Of a stretch of 64,000 nucleotides of DNA, positions 17,458 through 25,567 are shown piece after piece. This DNA is from Cedecea neteri (lineage in GTDB: Bacteria > Pseudomonadota > Gammaproteobacteria > Enterobacterales > Enterobacteriaceae). The translations under genes were made by a program, and so were the position numbers. The notes under the pieces are model-generated. The model did not search any database. It saw nothing but the letters and a program-made list of their open reading frames with translations, and was not told the origin of the DNA. Numbering within the stretch: position 1 is the first letter of the stretch; each line of letters begins with the position of its first letter. The DNA lies in contig NZ_CP009451.1 of the NCBI RefSeq assembly GCF_000757825.1, forward strand, positions 1,612,001 to 1,676,000, given 5' to 3'.

Positions 17458-17622
17458 CCCTGGCCAGTCGGAGAGAAAACGAGGCGATTTAAGCCGGAAC
17501 CGTGCCTCGCTTCATATTTTTACTCTCACCCTAACCCTCTCCCTGAAAGGGAGAGGGAAAAAAGAATGTTCTCTATCGGCTGTTTCCCCCCTCTCCCTCT
17601 GGGAGAGATACCGTCTTGTCGG

Positions 17623-18582
17623 TTATCCGGCAAGCGGTATTTCAGCGTTAAATTCACGCCCTGATTTCACCACCCCATAAGCCAGCTGTAGCAGCTTTCT
17701 CATTCCTGCACACACGCGTTCTTTGCCTGTCTTCCCCCTGCTCGCCATCCGGGTCATCAGGTCTTTCACCACTTCATTACATCTTCCCGCCACTACCGTA
17801 GGCATATACAGCACGCTACGCAGCTCACGGCTCCCCACTTTTGACAACCTGCTCTTTCCCTTCCACATCCCGGACTCACAACGTCGTGGGTTCAGCCCTG
17901 CATAAGCCACCAGAGCCTTACTGCTCCTGAACCGCCTCAGGTTTCCTGCGAAGGCCAGAAGACTCGTACTCAGCACATCTCCCACTCCCGGGATACTCTC
18001 CAGCAGCGCTTTGTCTTTTCTCAGGTCCGGGTCATCATCAATGTGCTGTCTGATTTTCTTTTTGGTTTCTTTTATCAGTTCATCCAGCGTGGCGATGTGC
18101 TCTTTTAACGAGCCAGTGATGACCTCATCTGCGGCCTCCAGCCTGTTCTCTTCCATCTGACGCATCTCTTCAAGATTTTTAAGATGCCGCACCAGCGCGG
18201 TCAGCTGTCGCTGGCTGAGAGGAGCCGGATGCCATTGGGCTGGCTGATACAGGGCACAATACCTTGCTATCAGGGCGGCATCGCTTTTATCCGTTTTGTT
18301 TCGGGTCAGTTCGGTGTTACTGAAGGCATGAATGCGGGCAGGGTTTTCCAGGCTGACGCGATAGCCGCCATCGGACAATGCCGTGGCGAGTTCCGTGCTG
18401 TAGCTGCCCGTCGCTTCCATACAGACATGACAGTCCCCAAAGCGGGTCAGCCAGTGAATAAACTCACGACATCCCGCAGGCGTGTTAGCAAACTTTTTAG
18501 TTTTGTATTTCTGACCAGGCAGCAGGACAGCGACATCAAATTTTAGCTTAGCAATATCAACGCCGACAGAAGTGAGGGTCAT
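17623..18582 (-). CDS. IS110-family DEDD transposase/recombinase
   Basis: 319 residues. The RuvC-like N-terminal domain carries Asp9 (VGVDIAK), Glu56 (CMEATGSY), Asp98 and Asp101 (NKTDKSDA). The C-terminal Tnp domain has SIPGVGDVLS, YAGLNPRRCESG and LSKVGSRELRSVLYMP, with Ser247 in the position of the catalytic serine of IS621. Length and sequence resemble the IS621 recombinase, which is guided by a bridge RNA. ATG 18582 has GGAGA 5 bases upstream. No frameshift or stop is present, so the enzyme is probably active. Confidence 0.96.
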   Translation of the reverse strand: MTLTSVGVDIAKLKFDVAVLLPGQKYKTKKFANTPAGCREFIHWLTRFGDCHVCMEATGSYSTELATALSDGGYRVSLENPARIHAFSNTELTRNKTDKSDAALIARYCALYQPAQWHPAPLSQRQLTALVRHLKNLEEMRQMEENRLEAADEVITGSLKEHIATLDELIKETKKKIRQHIDDDPDLRKDKALLESIPGVGDVLSTSLLAFAGNLRRFRSSKALVAYAGLNPRRCESGMWKGKSRLSKVGSRELRSVLYMPTVVAGRCNEVVKDLMTRMASRGKTGKERVCAGMRKLLQLAYGVVKSGREFNAEIPLAG

Positions 18583-18610
18583 CTGATTCTCCGTAACCTT
18601 ATGAATATTA

Positions 18611-18794
18611 TCGCCAGACCATCCTTATATGTGGGTGCTCAGAGGCACAGGATACCGTTCGGTCTTGAGGCGACAGGGAATAAGGTTGCCGGGGCATAAT
18701 CTCTCCCACGGGCTTGGAAGCACCAGGGCCAGGGGATGCTCACCGGCAACCTCCCGATGATCAGTCGGGGATCTTCCCCGCACTGGCGGGGAAG
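18611..18794 (-). ncRNA. Putative bridge RNA of the IS110 element
   Basis: The transposase-strand leader folds into three parts. (1) 5' hairpin CTTCCCCGC-CAGT-GCGGGGAAG (18794 to 18773). (2) A target loop closed by the 9-bp stem GGTTGCCGG/CCGGCAACC (18751-18743 with 18692-18684). (3) A donor loop closed by TCGCC..AGACC/GGTCTGGCGA (18673-18661 with 18620-18611), with inner hairpin GTGC-CTCTGA-GCAC. Loop 2 contains CCCTGGCCCT (18734-18725), matching the left target half plus core with one G-U-compatible change, and TGGGAGAG (18708-18701), complementary to the core plus right half. Loop 3 contains ACGGTATC and ATATAAG, matching the element's own right and left ends. About 184 nt, close to the known IS621 RNA. 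Transcription is inferred. Confidence 0.82.
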
Positions 18795-18826
18795 TTCAAG
18801 ACATAAGGGCCGGGGTGAGGGGCGAT

Positions 18827-25465: not shown

Positions 25466-25567
25466 CCCCTCACCCTACCCCTCTCCCCACAGGGGAGAGG
25501 GAATTGGATCGAGCATCAATCTTCGATTTTCCCCCTCTCCCTTTCAGGGAGAGGGCCGGGGTGAGGG
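25466..25567. repeat. Composite palindromic repeat, copy D (between proC and psiF)
   Basis: Starts CCCCTCACCCTACCCCTCTCCCC and ends CCCCCTCTCCC-TTTCA-GGGAGAGGGCCGGGGTGAGGG: two hairpins bounded by CCCTCACCC and GGGTGAGGG. It contains an intact, unoccupied IS110 target at 25547-25561 (core AG at 25552-25553 on the plus strand). It lies between two convergent genes. Confidence 0.85.

Follow-up and report, generated by a model that had tools for sequence, protein, structure and literature searches.

An IS110 element in the genome of Cedecea neteri interrupts a palindromic repeat, and the question is whether the leader of its transposase gene is a bridge RNA that directs the element to this repeat and, if so, how one RNA can address a repeat whose sequence varies between sites. 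The element was studied in a window of 64,000 nucleotides, which is the whole stretch of DNA analysed; the coordinates below refer to this window, and all features of the element are on its minus strand. We consider it highly probable (about 0.88) that the leader is a bridge RNA of the IS110 group which targets CACCC-YRR-CC/CT/CTCCC, and that its left guide can pair with every variant of the repeat by means of wobble.

The element and its copies

The element (17606..18807) is flanked on each side by a CT core that is counted in these coordinates, although one of the two cores belongs to the target; its ends were obtained from a comparison of the 14 copies and their flanking sequences. The open reading frame at 17623..18582 encodes a transposase or bridge recombinase of 319 amino acids, as judged from profile matches and solved relatives. 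It matches PF01548 with 96.7 bits and PF02371 with 82 bits, both above the cut-off; these are the IS110 family domains (DEDD RuvC-like and Transposase_20). By sequence, the only solved relatives are ISCro4 and IS621. Residues D9, E56, D98, D101 and S237, a D-E-D-D set plus serine, are unchanged across 14 relatives and correspond, as judged by eye from an alignment, to D11, E60, D102, D105 and S241 of IS621 if the deposited chain is shifted by two residues. The non-coding ends are 223 nt on the left and 15 nt on the right, which is the layout of the IS110 group; in the IS1111 group the RNA is located downstream of the gene within a long right end, an arrangement that a right end of 15 nt does not fit. 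Across the joined ends the sequence TTGCCG-17-TATCTT is a weak promoter match (8 of 12 bases, a value also reached by two other spacings or places there), as compared to 7 bases for the best match on the integrated left side.

The genome that contains the window (G000, one contig of 4.88 Mb) harbors 14 copies of the element. The other 13 differ from the window copy (L007) by 0 to 3 bases in the leader and by 0 to 4 in the coding region, and the presence of near-identical copies at 14 places suggests recent activity. Genomes and plasmids of E. coli, searched for near matches with records of the window's own genome possibly excluded, yielded none, and the leader had no match in seven other genomes of the genus. 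Relatives are named in Cedecea sp. NFIX57 (96%) and Enterobacter sp. SA197 (82%). A single-protein scan of viral contigs found four relatives at 32-33%. Rfam gave four matches up to E 1, all far under the gathering scores and all on the repeat at 17527-17611.

Fold and covariation of the predicted bridge RNA

The predicted bridge RNA is about 184 nt long (18611..18794) and was delimited by its fold and by stem covariation. It would start with a 5' stem-loop (18773..18794) of nine pairs, five of which show two-sided changes and in which 90% of the cells are paired. This is followed by a second hairpin with the loop CUGAUCA (18753..18770), recognized from alignments and covariation, and by the target-binding loop (18684..18751), with a closing stem formed by 18743-18751 and 18684-18692 for which 10 pairs were counted, six with two-sided changes. 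The donor-binding loop (18611..18673) has a stem formed by 18661-18673 and 18611-18620 and an inner hairpin at 18635-18648. The minus strand of 18612-18794 has a predicted folding energy of -79.3 kcal/mol (z -3.65), a value that none of 200 shuffles attained. In the minimum-energy fold the first loop is partly closed, because part of the left guide forms pairs that reach over the inner hairpin in the direction of the right guide.

A structure in the style of IS621 was applied to nine related leaders (alignment A2), and 94.3% of the 371 stem cells pair. Sliding the partners by 1-3 columns lowers this to 32.5-45.0%, a comparison that favours the unslid version because the structure had been derived from the window's own sequence. 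Two-sided changes occur in 14 of 42 pairs of these leaders (mean of shuffles 8.1, one of 500 as high) and in 35 cells (mean of shuffles 11.7, none of 500 as high), while the number of additional pair types stands out less, as 35 of 500 shuffles reach it. RNAalifold applied to 15 relatives (alignment A3) found two-sided changes in 25 of 40 pairs. The program also predicts pairs between the end of the right donor guide and the first five bases of the sequence formed by core and left end, and in one of these pairs G-C replaces A-U in four of the 15 sequences, a case of donor-guide covariation that was found unprompted. At the level of sequence, stem covariation is established by these comparisons. 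The 5' stem-loop and the two large internal loops of the IS110 group are conserved as structure, and the layout of a 5' hairpin plus two loops, which the sequence-only reading had proposed with covariation as its check, is upheld by stems that covary among relatives.

Two details of the predicted RNA lie outside the guides. The loop of the hairpin at 18753-18770 reads CTGATCA in all 15 aligned leaders, from Enterobacterales as well as Pseudomonas-like hosts, and this hairpin might be a binding element for the transposase. Position 18715 (-133), inside the inner hairpin of the target loop, is the sole base in the predicted RNA that varies among the 14 copies; it is A in L002 and in the window copy and G in the other 12.

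Predicted guides of the window element

The spacing of the guides follows the published IS621 numbering (PMC11208160, PMC11208158). The left target guide, CCUGGCC followed by the core CU, is located at 18725..18733, and a C at 18734 provides a tenth match, so that the segment CCCUGGCCCU lies at 18725-18734 on the minus strand as the sequence-only reading had placed it. The same applies to the right target guide GGGAGAG (18701..18707), to the left donor guide ACGGUAUC (18651..18658), which indeed equals the right end plus the first core base, and to the letters AUAUAAG, found inside the right donor guide ACAUAUAAG (18624..18632) that would pair with the core plus left end CTTATGT. The target guides match the left bottom strand and the right top strand including the core, and the donor guides match the element's own ends, as expected of the IS110 group. 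The four guides stand in the leader in the published IS621 order, just as had been claimed.

Two of the earlier assignments had to be revised. The right target guide had been given as the 8-nt segment UGGGAGAG, which includes 18708, and is better described as the 7-nt GGGAGAG: it reads CTCTCCC, with 7/7 matches in 13 of the 14 copies and one C-to-T change in L013. The next target base is A, T or C in 7, 4 and 3 of the 14 copies, and the IS621 numbering has a linker U at this place, which rules out the longer guide. For the right donor guide, a contiguous AUAUAAG with one G-U pair had been suggested. We replace this with the discontiguous reading 5'-AC[AU]AUAAG, in which two nucleotides are flipped out and all pairs are Watson-Crick as in the IS621 scheme, with no need for a G-U pair.

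Insertion sites

Comparison of the 14 flanks gave ...CCC-Y-R-R-CC + CT + TATGTCTT... for the left junction and ...ACGGTAT + CT + CTCCC for the right junction. In the window, the left core CT is at 18806-18807 and the right core at 17606-17607, and the interrupted repeat supplies the left target half CCCGGCC (18808..18814) and the right target half CTCCC (17601..17605). All 14 copies are found within one type of palindromic repeat, at CCC-Y-R-R-CC/CT/CTC and in one orientation relative to the repeat. This use of guide-matching sites, read from the junctions, agrees with the earlier proposal that the element is programmed for the palindromic repeat in which it sits. Copies L002, L003, L006 and L013 have a longer similar flank in common, so the 14 places are distinct but their surroundings are not all unrelated. 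On the left side of the occupied sites, positions -8 to -6 are C in all 14, -5 is C in 10 and T in 4, -4 is G in 8 and A in 6, -3 is G in 11 and A in 3, and -2 and -1 are C throughout, followed by an invariant CT core. On the right side, positions 10-14 read C, T, C, C (T in one of 14) and C, and position 15 is A in 7, T in 4 and C in 3.

There are 147 occurrences of the intact repeat CACCCYRRCCCTCTCCC in the genome and none of a reversed control pattern. With any base allowed at the three variable positions 158 sites are found, only 11 of which are non-YRR. Since non-YRR sites are this rare, the location of 14 of 14 copies at YRR sites, which would occur by chance with a probability of about 0.36 by our own arithmetic, is no test of wobble. 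Among the first 100 of the 147 sites the variants are TAA (41), CGG (32), CAG (12), CGA (5), TGA and CAA (3 each), and TAG and TGG (2 each). Further copies of the repeat are seen in the window at 2738-2878, 7445, 17523 and 25467-25567, often as inverted pairs; they amount to six matches with at most three mismatches as compared to 0.01 expected by chance.

Guides and targets in related elements

Structural spacing was used to locate left guides in 163 loci, which include the 14 copies of the window's genome; a candidate was present in 104 loci and absent from 59. The spacing rule was passed by 86 of the 104 loci, corresponding to 37 distinct guides. Each left guide is the best match among on average 2.6 stretches allowed by the spacing, and the wrong-target control went through the identical procedure. 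The mean number of matching positions, out of 7, is 6.2 for the 37 guides on their own target and 2.9 on the targets of other elements (n=1328). Matches to the own target were 7/7 for 18 guides, 6 for 11, 5 for six and 4 for two; thus 6 or 7 of 7 was reached by 29 of 37 guides on their own target and in 36 of 1328 trials on a wrong one. For the right guide, agreement with the core is complete (28 of 28 guides); the following positions agree in 23 of 28 (position 10), 24 of 29 (position 11), 17 of 31 (position 12) and 14 of 34 (each of positions 13 and 14). On the donor side, where right ends were assigned by pattern for the 32 elements tested, the left donor guide matches the right end at 8/8 in 22 elements and at 7/8 in four, and failed or was not found in six; the first five bases of the left end have an exact complement on the expected side in 29 of 42. 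Matching of guides to targets is demonstrated in these sequence comparisons.

An informative relative is found in a genome of another genus (G337). Its transposase is 80% identical to that of the window element, and its six copies carry the guide CCUAACC and sit at CAA (twice) and TAA (four times). The two elements have the repeat family, the right guide and the U at -5 in common, whereas the G337 guide has AA instead of GG at -4/-3, which matches the YAA-rich repeat population of this genome (among the first 100 of 262 sites CAA 48, TAA 41, CAG 7, CGA 3 and TAG 1; YAA 89). These homologous copies are at guide-matching sites, as the sequence-only reading implied: a left guide that differs at two positions goes with correspondingly different sites. 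Six other genomes of the genus of G337 gave no transposase match at E 1e-80; one of them (G078) contains a truncated copy. A truncated relative in Serratia silvae (L112) has the guide UCUAACC at the target TCTAACC, and T at -7 is rare, with 1 of 34 sites in Serratia silvae, one site in the window's genome and five in G337.

Some relatives occur in genomes of 2.8-4.3 Mb (G069, G104, G147 and G107) with many intact and broken IS110 copies, and proteins of this group carry names of insect endosymbionts (Regiella, Fukatsuia, Arsenophonus). In G147, the full copy at each of two loci (L154 and L157) is directly preceded by 85-88 nt of that element's left end, a stub that stops at the left target guide. 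The guide-coding DNA of this element equals the left target half plus core, and our guess is that the stub reflects insertion at guide-coding DNA followed by tandem collapse.

Proposed wobble at the polymorphic positions

The left guide CCUGGCC of the window element is identical to none of the 14 targets, but each target differs at only one or two positions and all differences are of the wobble type. The U of the guide faces C or T at -5 and the G residues face G or A at -4 and -3; for a guide that pairs with the bottom strand, the substitutions at these positions keep a pair (rU-dG, rG-dT). The variant on the right side of L013, T versus a guide G, is also of the wobble type. The 'one G-U-compatible change' of the sequence-only reading is thus present but not isolated, as all three polymorphic target positions face wobble-capable guide bases. 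We infer that wobble pairing is the physical cause of this pattern; U, G and G against Y, R and R would then allow one guide to address 147 of the 158 repeat sites in the genome through rU-dG and rG-dT pairs.

The mismatches of the left guides in the relatives were classified for 36 guides with at most two mismatches. They comprise 15 wobble cases, one reverse transition and 13 transversions, as compared to 66, 43 and 128 for equally good matches to wrong targets. The ratio of wobble to reverse changes, 15:1 (12 guides versus one) against 66:43 in the control, corresponds to a probability of about 0.004 by our own arithmetic, uncorrected for ancestry. The tally omits guide L171, with three mismatches, and copies with more than two mismatches (3/6 for GTATAGC, 1/6 for TTGCGCC and 1/3 for ATCCGGG); the 15 wobble cases include the U at -5 common to the window element and G337, as well as G069, where three of four copies are possibly at one duplicated site. 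Inspection by eye indicated that the script chose the wrong stretch for L187, the right one matching 7/7, and that L086 is doubtful; without these two the counts become 14, 1 and 10. For the right guide the numbers of wobble, reverse and transversion mismatches are 11, 6 and 47 at positions 10-14 and 4, 0 and 6 at positions 10-11.

Coverage of the repeat population depends on the number of wobbles allowed. With wobble, UGG has the widest coverage of a 100-site sample from the window's genome (92 YRR sites plus 8 listed non-YRR sites), reaching 92 of 100 sites, and the next best guide reaches 53. With at most one wobble, UGG reaches 36 and UAG 50, so that UGG is not the best. In G337, UGG would reach 100 of 100 sites versus 89 of 100 for the actual UAA, and with at most one wobble the values are 89 for UAA and 1 for UGG; UAA is thus the better guide in G337 only if wobbles carry a cost. 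In the window's genome, sites with fewer wobbles were not significantly preferred (9 of 14 occupied sites versus 39 of 100, p 0.088).

Proposed mechanism and alternative explanations

By analogy with IS621, for which the steps from circle to insertion have been demonstrated (PMC11208160, PMC11208158), the excised circle would make the RNA, which would bind the transposase. The target would be bound by the first loop and the ends of the element itself by the second, and insertion would follow from recombination at CT.

That the leader is merely a structured 5' untranslated region or a terminator of the transposase gene could account for the strong structure of this strand, but is hardly credible given that all four guide segments follow the published order and that two of them track the element's own ends across relatives. 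Site choice by the transposase itself or by the hairpin shape of the repeat, with the guide likeness being incidental, would suit a palindromic repeat that contains all 14 insertions. We regard this as very improbable, because the 37 guides, whose targets are unrelated, vary in step with these targets, matched changes of guide and target are seen in G337 and in the Serratia element L112, and IS621 was retargeted by changing the guides alone (PMC11208160, PMC11208158).

A more serious alternative accepts the bridge RNA and attributes U, G and G to accident or ancestry: the guide would once have matched TGG, with one or two mismatches generally being tolerated. Tolerance of this kind finds support in the transversion mismatches of the relatives (13 position/base cases); moreover, the U at -5 is common to G337 and L112 and may be inherited, and TGG sites do exist (the two among the first 100 noted above). 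On the other hand, none of the 14 copies is at a TGG site, and wobble cases outnumber reverse changes far more than in the control. In addition, the published work on IS621 reports that its guide ATCGGGC led to 129 of 173 insertion sites with ATCAGGC and only two exact ones, which was ascribed to rG:dT (PMC11208160, PMC11208158). Accident or ancestry remains a plausible account, though a somewhat less likely one. The reading that IS110 guides are selected as wobble-degenerate readers, with U or G at polymorphic positions in the orientation that pairs with both variants, one RNA for a whole polymorphic repeat family and retuning per repeat population (UGG for YRR, UAA for YAA), has in our estimate close to an even chance of being correct; selection is, like the wobble pairing itself, inferred.

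Bridge RNAs are under development as tools for DNA rearrangement. Together with the sister element and its different guide, the 14 natural insertions made with one guide amount to a test, set up by nature, of the non-Watson-Crick pairs that are tolerated and of the places where this is so. If true, a wobble rule should predict natural target ranges and off-targets of the tools better than mismatch counts, and would account for the ability of a 9-nt guide to exploit repeats that vary within their family. Taken as data on the reading of a polymorphic repeat by bridge-RNA guides, the results should be of moderate to good interest.

Comparison with known systems

The element adds a new member to a known family, and a guide that is wobble-tuned to a polymorphic host repeat seems to be undescribed in the literature searched: the open-licence literature other than bioRxiv yielded no paper on wobble in guides of IS110 bridge RNAs or seekRNAs. 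One guide wobble is already published for IS621. By sequence score the closest solved transposase is that of ISCro4 (PDB 9t56). ISEc21 resembles the window element in being of the IS110 type with an upstream non-coding region that makes a target-selecting RNA (seekRNA); as described, it differs in its 74-nt target-matching RNA and in a target inside IS3-family transposase genes, with no palindromic repeat (PMC11187229).

The closest overall parallel is IS621 from E. coli, also of the IS110 group, with a protein that can be aligned over nearly the whole length. In the extracts of the IS621 papers (PMC11208160, PMC11208158) we find the same CT core, an RNA upstream of the gene with a 5' stem-loop, target loop and donor loop, a left guide of 7+2 nt, an 8-nt left donor guide and a discontiguous right donor guide. 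The hairpin at 18753-18770 is absent from the IS621 features named there. Both elements have a palindromic repeat as target and an rG:dT wobble, predicted in the case of the window element, at the same left-target position, the IS621 structure containing such a pair at the site that corresponds to -4; the IS621 study describes a low tolerance for mismatches with one wobble exception. The two systems differ in the repeat that is used, in the right guide, which is matched over 4 nt in IS621 and over 7 nt in the window element, and in the number of wobble-facing guide positions, one in IS621 and three in the element described here.
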